Origin: an uncultured Lachnospiraceae bacterium
GTDB lineage: Bacteria > Bacillota > Clostridia > Lachnospirales > Lachnospiraceae
Reading direction: 5' to 3'
DNA length: 64,000 bases
NCBI GenBank assembly: GCA_905233695.1
Contig: CAJODN010000016.1
Coordinates: 53,991 to 117,990, forward strand
Both the position numbers and the translations under genes were made by a program. The notes under the pieces are model-generated. The model was not told where the DNA came from, searched no databases, and worked only from the letters and a program-made list of their open reading frames with translations. Below are positions 28,765-42,400 of this stretch, piece by piece (position 1 is the stretch's first letter; each line of letters starts with the position of its first letter).

Positions 28765-30114
28765 CTAATCCATATCCTCAAAAGCTTCCAGACCCTTCTT
28801 AACTTCAATGTTCTTGCTATCACCGTGCTTAACGAACAGCATAGTTACGAATGCAAGTCCCATGAATATGAACGCATATGGGAAGAAGATATCGTAAGAT
28901 ACATATCTAAGGAGTGCACCGCAGATAATAGGTGTTACAATCTGAGCCGCCATACTGAATGTATAATAGTATCCAGTGAACTTACCCACGTCGCTACCCT
29001 TACACATTTCAATAACCATAGGCAAACTGTTAACATTGATAAAGCCCCATCCGGCTCCGATTAATGCCAGAAGTACATAGAAGAATATCTTCTCTGCAAG
29101 CCGGAATTCTCCTGAGAATGAAAGCGTGAATATAAATGCCGCAACAAAGCATACCGTCATAAGAAGGACACCGATAATAATCGTCTTCTTACGACCAATC
29201 TTACTTGCTATTAGTCCGGAAGGAATATAACATACGATAGCGCCGACCGTTGCAACTGTAAGGAAGAGGTTAGCATCTCCAAGTGCCATATCCCATTTTA
29301 CAGATGCAAATGTTGTAAACCATGTCTCAAGTGCGTTATAAGCAATAAACCAAAGGGCTACGGATATAAGTACGAAGATAAGGCTCTTCTTAACCTCCGG
29401 TGGAAGCTTGGCATTTCCCGAACCGTCATCAACGGTAAGATCCCACTCGGGATGCTCTTTCTCTATCTCCTTAACTTCATTACTAAGCTTTACTTCATTA
29501 ACGGTAATCATAACAATCAGCATTCCGACTATCATAATTCCGGCAACTATCGCGAACAGAAGGAAGTAATCGACGTGCTCAAGTTCTGCAACTCTCTTGG
29601 AATTGTAAAGAACTGCTGATATTCCGAGATACAGCACACCACCGACAGCACCCATAAGATTAATAATAGCATTCGCCTGACTTCTAAGTGGCTTCGGTGT
29701 TACATCCGGCATAAGTGCTACAGCCGGAGAACGATATGTACCCATGGCAACAAGAAGTGCGCCAAGGATTCCCACGAAGAGAATTTCCTTACCAAGTGAA
29801 GGATTGGCGAAGTAGCTGTTATCTACAAGCGGAAGCATCAGCATCAGAATAACTGCCGCTATTGTACCGAATAAGATAAACGGTTTTCTTCGTCCCATCT
29901 TGGATTTACATTTATCGGATATACCACCGAATAATGGAAGCAGGAATAATGCAAGCACATTATCAGCCGCCATGATAACACCGGTGATTGTCTCGTTCAT
30001 GTTGAATGTGTTCTTCAGAATCAAAGGGATGATTCCGTTGTACATTTGCCAAAATGCACAGATTGATAAAAATGCAAAACCAACTCTGATTGTCTGCCAT
30101 GTCTTAAGCTTCAT
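28765..30114 (-). CDS. MFS transporter, probable sugar-type permease
   Basis: A 449-residue integral membrane transporter with twelve predicted segments. The MFS loop 2-3 signature is FGGISDKCKSKMGRRKPFIL, and a matching loop 8-9 sequence is SGLIASKIGRKKTIII. It resembles SLC45/GPH-like carriers that move glycosides with a cation. ATG at 30114 is used; the track start is a TTG four codons earlier. No clear ribosome binding site precedes it. The terminator-free gap to the next gene contains a family 2 hairpin. Confidence 0.82.
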   Translation of the reverse strand: MKLKTWQTIRVGFAFLSICAFWQMYNGIIPLILKNTFNMNETITGVIMAADNVLALFLLPLFGGISDKCKSKMGRRKPFILFGTIAAVILMLMLPLVDNSYFANPSLGKEILFVGILGALLVAMGTYRSPAVALMPDVTPKPLRSQANAIINLMGAVGGVLYLGISAVLYNSKRVAELEHVDYFLLFAIVAGIMIVGMLIVMITVNEVKLSNEVKEIEKEHPEWDLTVDDGSGNAKLPPEVKKSLIFVLISVALWFIAYNALETWFTTFASVKWDMALGDANLFLTVATVGAIVCYIPSGLIASKIGRKKTIIIGVLLMTVCFVAAFIFTLSFSGEFRLAEKIFFYVLLALIGAGWGFINVNSLPMVIEMCKGSDVGKFTGYYYTFSMAAQIVTPIICGALLRYVSYDIFFPYAFIFMGLAFVTMLFVKHGDSKNIEVKKGLEAFEDMD

Positions 30115-38233: not shown

Positions 38234-40567
38234 CTAAATTGTTACACCGTCACCTTTTGGTTCCTTCTTTTTCTTCTTGTAAGTACTGTTACGAGTAGGT
38301 GTATTCTTCTTACTCTTAATGTGTACCTTCATCACATACCAGAGCTGTGTAGCAAGGCAGATTGATGAGTATGTACCTACGATAACACCGAGAAGAAGCG
38401 GTATCGCGAATTCCTTAATTGTCGACACGCCGAAGATCAAAAGCATAACAACCATAAGTGCCGTTGTAAATGAAGTTGAAATAGATCTAGTAAGTGTCTG
38501 TGTAATACTTTCGTTACAAAGCTTCTTATAGTCTTCGGGATCTCGCCTTGTCATATTCTTCTCATTTTCACGAATTCTATCGAATATGACAATTGTATCA
38601 TTGACTGAATATCCGATTACGGTAAGCATACATGCGATAAATGTTGAACCAACCGTCAGTCTTACAATTGCATAAAGCGTAAGTACAACAAGCACGTCAT
38701 GGACTAACGCCAAAATAGCTGACGATGCGTACCGAAGATCCCTGAACCTGATCCAGATATATATAAGCATCGCTATAGCCGCCACAATAACAGCGATTAT
38801 GGCATCCGTTCGCATTTCACTTGAAATCGTTGAACTTATATTCTCGGAAGAAATATCCGTCTCCTGAATTCCCTTCTTCTCAAGAAGTGCCTTATTAAGT
38901 GCTTCACGTTCGTCTAAGTCAAGTGTTCTCGTCTTAATAACGACCTGATTAGAATTGTCTACAAGCTGTGTCTGTATGTCATTATCTCCCGTCACAGCAC
39001 TGACAATCGGAACTATATCAGAATCTATCTCGTCTAATGTATACTCTTTATCGAGATTAACAGTTGTTGATGTACCGCCGGAGAACTCAAGGCTGTAGTT
39101 TAATGCCTTATTACCCATTCCGGCATTAACGCCCATTCCGATAAGTCCCGCTGCAATAATAACAGCCGAAATCACGAAGAATATTGTCTTCTTTCCTACG
39201 AAGTCGATAGGTGCTCTCTTCTTAGCCTTACCGTAGAGATTAGGATTGGTAAGCCCGAATGCAACAGCACTGCTTATAAGTATTCTTGTAACGATAAGAG
39301 CCGTGAACATTGATAAAACTACACCGATTGCAAGTGTAACAGCGAATCCTCTTACTGTTCCCGAACCAAGGAAATAAAGAACTGCTGCCGCAATAAGTGT
39401 TGTTATGTTACCGTCGAAGATAGCCGACATAGCCTTCTTGAAACCTGTCTGAACAGATGCTCCCGTATCATGTCCCGCCGCAAGCTCTTCTTTAATTCTG
39501 GCAAATATAATAACATTTGCATCCACCGCCATACCGATGGACAGAACAATACCGGCGATACCCGGAAGTGTAAGGGTTATATCGAAAGCCCATATAATAA
39601 ATACTACAAGCGCCGTATAGAACACTAACGACAAACTTGCCGTAACACCCGGAAGTCTGTACATTATAATCATGAATATAATAACTGCGATAAGACCGAT
39701 AAGTCCGGCAAGTAAGCTTGATGAAAGAGCATCAGAACCAAGCTGTGCACCTACGACCTGAGACTGAATCTCAGTAAGCTTAATATCAAGACCACCGATT
39801 CTTATATATGACGCAAGCTTCTCTGCTTCGTCAATCGAAGACATTCCTTCAATAATACAGTTACCGTCGGTAATAGCCGCATTTACCTTAGGAACACTTA
39901 CGAATTGTCCGTCATAGTATATACCGATTGATTCGCCTGACTGGTAAGCCTTGGTAGTTGCATCACCGAAAGCCTTGGCTCCGGCCTGATTAAGTGTAAT
40001 TGACACAACAGGATCCTTAGCATTGGTCTGCTGGTTGTTATTGTATCCTGCCGATGCGGAACTAACCTGCGAACCATCTATTACGATAGAGCCGTCACTC
40101 TCAAGCTGAGCAAGGCTCTTATTAAGCTTATACTGACCGGTAGTCGAGTCATATTCATAATTCTTATTACCCGACGAATCCGTCTCTGACATAAAATAGA
40201 GGTCACCGGGTGTACCTAACTCTTCAAGAATTGCATTGGCATCTGTTACACCCGGGATTTCTACTACAATTCTCTTGTCTCCCACCTTATATACAGATGC
40301 TTCTGTTGTCTGAGAACTTCCCAGATCCTTTTCTATACGCTGTTGCAGCTTATAGATTGTATCGTTCATCTCTTCTTCGGTAGGGGATCCTTCAGCTTCG
40401 TAAGTAATACTTACACCACCTGCAAGGTCAAGACCAAGCTTGATATTCTGGTCGGCACCTTTGCCTGTCGATGATATGATAAGTGACGCTTCATAGATAA
40501 GAAGGGCTGTCAATATCACGAAAGCAAGAAGCCATGCCACCGCTTGTCCTTTTTTCATGTTCTTCAT
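38234..40567 (-). CDS. secDF: Fused protein translocase SecD/SecF
   Basis: A 777-residue membrane protein that uses the proton gradient to help Sec-dependent export. The SecD half (residues about 1-450) has DLAGGVSITYEA and the proton-path segment IVLSIGMAVDANVIIFARI. The SecF half (about 455-777) has SLEFSGGTSTTVNL and GYSVNDTIVIFDRIREN. Twelve membrane segments are expected. The fusion is common in Clostridia and bacilli. It starts 20 nt after the SCIFF maturase stop, and glyA follows. Confidence 0.94.
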   Translation of the reverse strand: MKNMKKGQAVAWLLAFVILTALLIYEASLIISSTGKGADQNIKLGLDLAGGVSITYEAEGSPTEEEMNDTIYKLQQRIEKDLGSSQTTEASVYKVGDKRIVVEIPGVTDANAILEELGTPGDLYFMSETDSSGNKNYEYDSTTGQYKLNKSLAQLESDGSIVIDGSQVSSASAGYNNNQQTNAKDPVVSITLNQAGAKAFGDATTKAYQSGESIGIYYDGQFVSVPKVNAAITDGNCIIEGMSSIDEAEKLASYIRIGGLDIKLTEIQSQVVGAQLGSDALSSSLLAGLIGLIAVIIFMIIMYRLPGVTASLSLVFYTALVVFIIWAFDITLTLPGIAGIVLSIGMAVDANVIIFARIKEELAAGHDTGASVQTGFKKAMSAIFDGNITTLIAAAVLYFLGSGTVRGFAVTLAIGVVLSMFTALIVTRILISSAVAFGLTNPNLYGKAKKRAPIDFVGKKTIFFVISAVIIAAGLIGMGVNAGMGNKALNYSLEFSGGTSTTVNLDKEYTLDEIDSDIVPIVSAVTGDNDIQTQLVDNSNQVVIKTRTLDLDEREALNKALLEKKGIQETDISSENISSTISSEMRTDAIIAVIVAAIAMLIYIWIRFRDLRYASSAILALVHDVLVVLTLYAIVRLTVGSTFIACMLTVIGYSVNDTIVIFDRIRENEKNMTRRDPEDYKKLCNESITQTLTRSISTSFTTALMVVMLLIFGVSTIKEFAIPLLLGVIVGTYSSICLATQLWYVMKVHIKSKKNTPTRNSTYKKKKKEPKGDGVTI

Positions 40568-40587: not shown

Positions 40588-42048
40588 TTATTTCGAAGTG
40601 GCTGCCTTGATGTAAATAGCATCTTCTACACGCTTCTTCTGAAGCTTACAGCCGATATTATATGTACCCAAAATACTGCCGCTATAGTTATAAGCGTTGG
40701 CGGCGCATCCGCCGCTACAGTAGAATTTAGCAAAGCAATTATTACATTCTTCCTTGGCATAGACATTACAAGATTTAAATTCGTCTCGTAAGTCAAGATT
40801 TTCAAGGCCTGAATCCACATTTCCCATATAAAAATCATTATCGCCAACAAATTGATGACAAGGGAAAAGCTCGCCCGTGGGCGTCACAGCGAGATACTCC
40901 GTGCCCGAACCGCAGCCCGATAGCCTCTTGTACACACAAGGTCCGCCTTCAAGATCTATCATATAATGAAAGAAATTGAATTCATCTTCCGTTCCGCTAC
41001 GCCTCACCATCTCCTTGGCAAGGGAATCGTATTCTTCGAAGAGTATAGGCAAATCCTCTTCTCTAATGGCGTAATCATCTGTATCCTTCGCCACAACCGG
41101 CTCCACCGAAATCTGCTTGAAGCCGAGATTCGCAAGATGAAGTACATCCTTACTAAAGTCAAGATTATTATGTGTGAACGTACCTCTTACATAATACTTT
41201 TCTTGCCCTCTCTTTTTGGCAAATGTAATGAATCTATCGATAACAGTGTCGTAGCTTCCCGCTCCCTTAGGGAAAGGACGCATCCTGTCATGAACCTCGG
41301 GGCGACCGTCAACGGACAACACCACATTATCCATATTGTCGTTGAGATAGTCCATAATCTCTTCTGTGAGAAGGACACCGTTGGTTGTAAGAGTGAACCG
41401 GAAATTCTTATCATTTTCCTTTTCGATACTTCTTGCATAGTCGACGATTTTTTTAACAACCTCGAAGTTCATAAGTGGCTCGCCACCGAAGAAGTCGACC
41501 TCGAGATTTCGACGACCTTTTGAATTCTCCACGAGAAAATCTATCGCCTTCCTACCGACCTCGAAACTCATAAGCTCCTTCTCGCCGTTGTATTCGCCTT
41601 TGCCTGCAAAGCAATATTTACAGGCGAGGTTACAATCGTGTGCGATATGAAGGCAAAGCGCCTTAACGACCGTCGGTCTCTTACTGTAATCTATGATATT
41701 ACTTTCATAGTTATCGACGGTGAATAATTCTTCATTATTAACAAGAGTATCTATCTCGTCATATGCCTCGAATAATTCGTCAATTGTAATATCTTTACTA
41801 TCTGTAAAATGTTCCTTCCGATTCATAACGGTCTTACATATAGCTTCTTTATCGAGCTTCGACCATAGAGGGTTCTTACTGCCCTCTTTGTTTGACTCTG
41901 AATCGACGCTGCCATTCTTCTCTAATTCCTGAAGAAGCTTATCGCATTCTTCTATGAGCTCATAGGTTATATCATCTACGACATGTATGGCACCGGAGCT
42001 TACATCAATTACAATACTCTCACCGTTAACCCTATACTGATGTATCAT
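40588..42048 (-). CDS. scfB: SCIFF peptide maturase, radical SAM (thioether-forming)
   Basis: A 486-residue radical SAM SPASM enzyme that forms Cys-to-Thr type thioether bonds in the SCIFF peptide. An N-terminal RiPP-recognition-like region precedes the cluster motif CLHIAHDCNLACKYCFAG near residue 140. Auxiliary-cluster cysteines are in CGSGTEYLAVTPTGELFPCH and C-terminal CNVYAKEECNNC/FCSGGCAANAYN. The cognate scfA lies 106 nt upstream. Downstream secDF is 20 nt away. The pair is nearly universal in Clostridia, where its product has no settled role. Confidence 0.93.
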   Translation of the reverse strand: MIHQYRVNGESIVIDVSSGAIHVVDDITYELIEECDKLLQELEKNGSVDSESNKEGSKNPLWSKLDKEAICKTVMNRKEHFTDSKDITIDELFEAYDEIDTLVNNEELFTVDNYESNIIDYSKRPTVVKALCLHIAHDCNLACKYCFAGKGEYNGEKELMSFEVGRKAIDFLVENSKGRRNLEVDFFGGEPLMNFEVVKKIVDYARSIEKENDKNFRFTLTTNGVLLTEEIMDYLNDNMDNVVLSVDGRPEVHDRMRPFPKGAGSYDTVIDRFITFAKKRGQEKYYVRGTFTHNNLDFSKDVLHLANLGFKQISVEPVVAKDTDDYAIREEDLPILFEEYDSLAKEMVRRSGTEDEFNFFHYMIDLEGGPCVYKRLSGCGSGTEYLAVTPTGELFPCHQFVGDNDFYMGNVDSGLENLDLRDEFKSCNVYAKEECNNCFAKFYCSGGCAANAYNYSGSILGTYNIGCKLQKKRVEDAIYIKAATSK

Positions 42049-42068
42049 TTCTCTGTCCTTATAACGTC

Positions 42069-42115
42069 AAAAACCGACCGAATAGCAGTATGGCATTTCA
42101 TACTGAACATCGGTC
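42069..42115 (-). terminator. Attenuating terminator between scfA and scfB
   Basis: A two-part stem GACCGA/TCGGTC enclosing CAGTATG/CATACTG, followed on the minus strand by GGTTTTTGAC. It lies after scfA and before scfB, so partial read-through would give much more precursor than maturase. Confidence 0.65.
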
Positions 42116-42154
42116 AGAATTTTGCTATTTCTGTATATTTTGTATAAAACTTAA

Positions 42155-42295
42155 CTACTTCTGTTCGCAGGATTGGTTACCAACGGTACAGCTTGTCTTG
42201 CAGGCAGACTGACAAGATGTCTGGCATTCGCCACATCCGCCCTTCTTAACTGTTGTAGAAAGCTTCTTTGTTTTTAATGTCTTTACATGCTTCAT
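42155..42295 (-). CDS. scfA: SCIFF ribosomal peptide precursor (six cysteines in forty-five residues)
   Basis: A 46-residue peptide below the ORF-track cutoff. A basic leader MKHVKTLKTKKLSTTVKKGG is followed by a core with six cysteines (CGECQTSCQSACKTSC and NQSCE), the exact layout of the SCIFF family. AAAGGAAG lies 7 nt before the ATG. It is transcribed from a promoter that overlaps the divergent DHH gene promoter, and its modifying enzyme scfB follows. The mature product carries thioether crosslinks; its biological role is not established. Confidence 0.95.
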   Translation of the reverse strand: MKHVKTLKTKKLSTTVKKGGCGECQTSCQSACKTSCTVGNQSCEQK

Positions 42296-42329
42296 AGTTC
42301 TACTTCCTTTCTTTAAAACACAACACGTT

Positions 42330-42359
42330 TTGACATTATATCACAATTTTTTCTATTAA
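42330..42359 (+). promoter_or_regulatory. Promoter of the DHH phosphoesterase gene
   Basis: TTGACA, an 18-bp spacer and TATTAA. Its -35 overlaps by one base the -10 of the divergent scfA promoter. Confidence 0.55.
42335..42340 (-). promoter_or_regulatory. -10 element of the scfA promoter
   Basis: Minus-strand TATAAT about 40 nt before the scfA ATG, in the context GTGATATAATG. The -35 at 17 bp is weak (TTTATT). Confidence 0.5.
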
Positions 42360-42400
42360 TAAAGGTTTTCAGCAATGTTTTTTTATGTTATTATTCAAAT

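Follow-up and report, generated by a model that had tools for sequence, protein, structure and literature searches.

The SCIFF precursor gene scfA in this window (the whole stretch of 64,000 nucleotides that was analysed) is probably a self-contained transcription unit within a larger operon. Most of its transcripts are predicted to end at a hairpin and T-tract in the 3' UTR, and the adjoining maturase gene scfB would be expressed by read-through. The features of the locus and of the divergent DHH gene beside it are listed in Table 1.

Table 1. Features of the scfA region, in order of position in the window
Feature	Position	Strand	Basis or remark
secDF	38234..40567	-	20 nt after scfB
scfB, radical SAM/SPASM SCIFF maturase	40588..42048	-	TIGR03974
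scfB ribosome-binding site AAGGA	42056..42060	-	sequence, 3' of T-tract
T-tract TTTTT, immediately 3' of hairpin	42069..42073	-	sequence
Two-part hairpin, scfA 3' UTR	42074..42117	-	-20.8 kcal/mol
scfA, 46-aa six-cysteine SCIFF precursor	42155..42295	-	profile matches
TTGACA, read earlier as the DHH -35	42330..42335	+	1/8 genus genomes; judged accidental
scfA extended -10 TGATATAAT (TATAAT 42340-42335)	42335..42343	-	genus and family conservation
scfA -35 region TTTATT (C at 42364), 17-bp spacer	42358..42363	-	CTT(T/G) consensus match
Best-supported DHH promoter: TTTTCA (42366-42371), 17 bp, TGTTATTAT (42386-42394)	42366..42394	+	pattern scan and genus
DHH-DHHA1 family protein, 322 aa	42401..43369	+	PF01368 and PF02272

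The product of scfA (MKHVKTLKTKKLSTTVKKGGCGECQTSCQSACKTSCTVGNQSCEQK) scores 83.1 bits against TIGR03973 (cut-off 50) and 84.5 bits against PF13165 (cut-off 27) and so can be classified as a SCIFF precursor. The reading frame has no entry in the ORF track, and these scores bear out the view of the earlier note that it is nonetheless a real 46-aa gene. It is present in one copy in the window's Lachnospiraceae genome. Over the scfA locus, two members of the genus match deposited sequences exactly, one named Pseudobutyrivibrio sp. UBA3626 and the other an uncultured Lachnospiraceae bacterium. The scfB product scores 724.2 bits against TIGR03974 (cut-off 425) and its gene adjoins that of the precursor, as is expected of a SCIFF maturase. 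The two genes are separated by about 106-112 nt. A secDF-like protein is encoded next after scfB in 110 of 126 related loci, and in the window secDF likely shares the scfB read-through transcript. SCIFF is present in 128 of the 147 sampled genomes of the class. Tandem SCIFF gene pairs with few bases between the genes were also seen (G334:C84:13908-14159 and G427:C161:6831-7085).

The promoter of scfA is of the sigma-A type, with an extended -10 element that is conserved in relatives. TATAAT (on the complementary strand) is kept in all eight genomes of the window's genus, one of which has a changed flanking base. The wider sample comprises 201 distinct scfA loci, dominated by Lachnospiraceae; 54% of them have a perfect TGNTATAAT before scfA (0.7% of shuffles) and 90% a nearly perfect extended -10 (6% of shuffles). 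The 180 scfA promoters that were aligned share an A-tract, CTT(T/G), a 17-bp spacer and TRTGNTATAAT. This pattern was considered as an scfA-specific motif and rejected, as it occurs 0-16 times per genome and is a generic form of the family. The scfA-scfB gap shows no enrichment of -10 elements (24.7% vs. 23.7%), and a promoter of scfB's own in the gap was rejected on this ground. Unless there is a promoter within scfA itself, expression of scfB would therefore need read-through.

In the window, the scfA-scfB gap folds with -25.6 kcal/mol (z = -3.1), and none of 200 shuffled sequences is as stable. The hairpin has the two-part form that the earlier note described, with an outer stem (CTGACCGA/TCGGTCGG) stacked on an inner one (CAGTATG/CATACTG) across an internal loop, and is followed directly by the T-tract. 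Because of the internal loop, a simple terminator scan of the window missed it. Stability beyond chance and an adjoining U-tract are both found here, as in intrinsic terminators. The AAGGA of scfB lies 3' of the T-tract and would be missing from any transcript that ends there. An outer stem of the CTGACCG/CGGTCGG type occurs in seven of the eight genus genomes, with inner stems that vary in sequence and length. The eighth genome (L020) has a different hairpin and no T-tract, so that some members may terminate transcription only in part or not at all.

In the wider sample, the start of scfB could be placed in 183 of the 201 loci. A hairpin of -8 kcal/mol or lower plus a T-tract was found within the gap in 130 of these (71%), compared with 12.6% of dinucleotide-preserving shuffles. 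Gaps elsewhere in the same loci have the combination in 31% of cases where the flanking genes share a strand and in 46% where they converge; as the genes bounding these controls were called crudely and some of the gaps are true ends of operons, the comparison is, if anything, a demanding one. It is found between scfA and scfB in 43 of 57 loci of the wider order and in 34 of 43 loci of the class's other orders. Judged by these counts, the hairpin is a general feature of the class and not a local oddity. The frequency of 71% and the absence of a gap promoter give comparative support to the proposal, made in the earlier note, of an internal terminator that would favour excess precursor.

Within the order, the hairpins include two types with a recognisable stem sequence. 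The type A consensus is UAAGCAGCGR-loop-YCGCUGCUUAUUNUNUGU and that of type B is GACCG...CGGUC-AUUUGURCGUU. Outside the window's genus, in 117 loci drawn mostly one per genus, the type A stem (GCAGYG/CRCTGY) occurs in 54 and the type B stem (GACCG/CGGTC) in 13, compared with 0.03% and 0.27% of shuffled gaps, respectively. The stem sequence AAGCAGCG/CGCTGCTT is kept in about half of the sampled genera and is specific to the site. Type A was found 76 times in the scfA-scfB gap, whereas the 1.4 Mb of flanking sequence held four; the corresponding counts for type B are 22 and 14. That type A is simply the general terminator of the family was considered and rejected, since GCAGYG is present in the 5' arm of 1 of 118 control terminators. 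Hairpins with AGCAGT...ACTGCT arms follow scfA in four loci from other orders of the class (L313, L315, L340 and L311) and are possibly distant type A forms.

Because the search pattern behind the type A alignment already specifies the six inner pairs, only pairs outside this pattern are independent evidence. These pairs covary (A-U/G-C/G-U). Columns 5-32 are A-U in 48 hairpins, G-C in 10 and G-U in 8, with none unpaired, and at pairs 12-25 and 13-24 both partners vary (12-25 is G-U in 21 of 66). A covariance model (R1) built from the 66 hairpins was run on 117 genomes of the order and gave 26 matches directly 3' of scfA, 20 of which lie outside the training set, in several further families. 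Eight of its best nine matches are at scfA. A further 35 matches elsewhere have E-values of 0.001 or lower; matches elsewhere at weaker scores are expected because the model is short. Other strong R1 matches (in G327, G299, G052 and others) lie beside unrelated genes and were set aside as chance hits or ordinary terminators. An identical palindrome, AGCAGCGAGAAATCGCTGCT, was noted in five genomes of several genera (G026, G074, G076, G132 and G150); in G026 and G074 it lies away from the SCIFF gene, and it is possibly coding.

The window's own hairpin is not matched by R1, whose best score in the window (7.8 bits) falls elsewhere. The CTGACCG/CGGTCGG stem of its genus is unlike the AAGCAGCG/CGCTGCTT stem of other genera, and the window hairpin is nearest to type B. 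Searches against Rfam matched only tRNAs in the window and 17 related loci, with no family at the scfA hairpin. As far as these alignments indicate, the sequence conservation of the scfA hairpin in one order is unlike that of ordinary stop signals.

The tail that follows the stem has the consensus TTATTNTNTGT in type A and ATTTGTGCGTT in type B. Of the type A hairpins, 65% have a pyrimidine-G (YG) step at +9, and 63% of those of type B have one at +8. When one common method is applied to both sets, YG is found in scfA hairpins at +9 in 41% and at +8 in 25%, compared with 14% and 4% in the 118 control terminators. The T content of the 9-nt tail is 5.8 in scfA hairpins and 6.2 in control terminators, a slight deficit that, like the hairpin of L020, speaks for incomplete termination in some members. 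YG at the RNA 3' end is a mark of elemental pauses, and we infer that the scfA hairpin may act as a paused terminator.

We propose that scfA is expressed in the following way. A strong housekeeping (sigma-A type) promoter with an extended -10 element would start transcription of scfA, and the hairpin and T-tract in the 3' UTR would stop most transcripts before the ribosome-binding site of scfB. The outcome would be a short, abundant scfA mRNA. Synthesis of the maturase would rely on the smaller share of transcripts that continue past the hairpin, and secDF, 20 nt behind scfB, may be carried on these too. The level of the precursor would thereby be set well above that of its maturase. An excess monocistronic scfA message is the most likely reading of the locus; termination itself, its efficiency and the excess of precursor are predictions from the arrangement of promoter, hairpin and T-tract. 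Plain termination leaves the conservation of the stem sequence unaccounted for.

This conservation could be accommodated by a regulated attenuator, in which a putative protein or RNA would bind the conserved stem and toggle read-through into scfB-secDF. Such regulation is possible, if rather doubtful. Several families of the order share the stem's sequence as well as its structure, this sequence is specific to the site, and the YG signature suggests pausing, which would give time for regulation; however, many genera, the window's included, carry another stem in this position, and the conserved sequence thus appears dispensable in them. Cysteine-stalling attenuation in scfA was examined as a candidate and rejected, as pairing of the 5' arm with the scfA coding sequence (-9.22 kcal/mol) is no stronger than with codon-shuffled sequence (-9.23 kcal/mol). 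A slightly more tentative suggestion is that the order's scfA 3' UTR hairpin represents a new sequence-specific RNA regulatory element, with a putative dedicated factor (protein or RNA) that reads AAGCAGCG/CGCUGCUU. If this were true, the factor would set transcription into scfB and secDF and would link SCIFF maturation both to a signal and to the export of proteins.

Excess scfA would likewise result if the hairpin were a processing or stabilising structure, with a long transcript cut and the hairpin-protected scfA piece outlasting the scfB piece. Protection by a strong stem does not depend on how the 3' end was formed. We nevertheless regard processing as unlikely, because the T-tract is directly 3' of the stem in most loci and a U-rich tail with YG fits an end of transcription and not a cut.

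The earlier note had further proposed that scfA and the divergent DHH gene compete for polymerase through promoters that overlap by one base, which would tie SCIFF to a nucleotide phosphoesterase. The overlap exists as a string, since TTGACA on the forward strand shares base 42335 with the scfA TATAAT, and DHH is divergent to scfA in all eight genus genomes (one cut by a contig end). It does not hold up as an overlap of promoters. TTGACA is found in the window only, the other genus genomes having TGGCA, AGAGA or TTTAGA-like letters at this position, whereas all eight share another candidate DHH promoter that lies about 30 bp beyond it. In this promoter, TTTTCA (TTTTCT in one genome) lies 17 bp upstream of TGNTATTAT, which ends 6 nt before the DHH ATG; the same TTTTCA-17-TGNTATTAT arrangement was found independently by a pattern scan. 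Its -35 element adjoins the scfA -35 and does not lie across the scfA -10. The two promoters stand back to back in the window and four relatives, with their -35 elements about 2 bp apart, and insertions lie between them in three of the eight genomes. Interference between polymerases at scfA and DHH is possible, but from this comparison it does not appear to be a conserved design.

The proposed link to DHH fares no better when gene neighbours are compared across related loci. The commonest upstream neighbour of scfA is a co-directional membrane protein gene (DUF3792/TIGR04086; 68 of 194 loci), and the cluster of DHH neighbours comprises six loci, all from the window's genus. Among the matches listed, DHH relatives from other genera (identity 40% or more) are never on the SCIFF contig where both are listed. 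Taken as a whole, competition between scfA and DHH with a functional tie to a phosphoesterase is very improbable. The DHH protein has the DHH and DHHA1 domains that are common to NrnA-type and Mn-dependent pyrophosphatase-type proteins, and solved members of these match it weakly. Its scores against NrnA (NF053633; 39.3 bits, cut-off 350) and Mn pyrophosphatase (NF003877; 52.1 bits, cut-off 283) are far below the cut-offs, so it can be described only as a DHH-family protein. No Shine-Dalgarno sequence precedes the DHH gene in the eight aligned genus genomes, and with TGNTATTAT 6 nt from the ATG its message is predicted to be leaderless, starting at the ATG. A second leaderless-like start is found at 29655 on the reverse strand of the window, where TGCTATTAT lies 7 nt before the ATG of a 296-codon frame.

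Hardly credible, finally, is the reading of the palindrome as an operator in the DNA that a transcription factor would bind, because although the stem is a dyad in DNA too, the spacing of its half-sites is variable (the pattern allowed 3-16 nt and many lengths were seen), G-U pairs are common (as at pair 12-25), which fits RNA, and there is no promoter nearby to regulate.

The earlier note called the function of SCIFF unknown, which no longer holds in full, although its role is still poorly known. According to PMC8102284, which describes the work of Chen et al. 2020, and PMC8326336, which cites it, expression of sporulation genes fell and that of agr rose when the genes for the precursor and the radical SAM enzyme were disrupted in C. 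beijerinckii. A built-in excess of precursor and a generic housekeeping promoter would argue for a steadily made product and not an induced antibiotic. The conserved hairpin is a defined and easily mutated handle on SCIFF expression. It also raises the question of why the sequence of a stop signal is kept across several bacterial families and replaced in some lineages.

In its genes, the window's locus is an ordinary member of the SCIFF/ranthipeptide system, with scores above the curated cut-offs, the usual gene order and secDF next. It differs in the conservation of the 3' UTR hairpin and promoter, of which our search of the literature on SCIFF with transcription and terminator found no description. 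In elemental and hairpin-stabilised pauses of RNA polymerase, a pyrimidine stands at -1 and G at +1. The scfA hairpin is predicted to resemble these in its order of hairpin, 8-9 nt and YG, and is unlike them in its U-rich, terminator-like tail. A further parallel is with lantibiotic operons, in which partial terminators of the nisA-nisB type presumably separate precursor from modification genes. These operons have the same arrangement of a promoter before the precursor gene, a hairpin and T-tract before the maturase gene and read-through for the enzyme; in scfA-scfB, by contrast, the same gap carries the hairpin class-wide and, in one order, the stem sequence itself is conserved.
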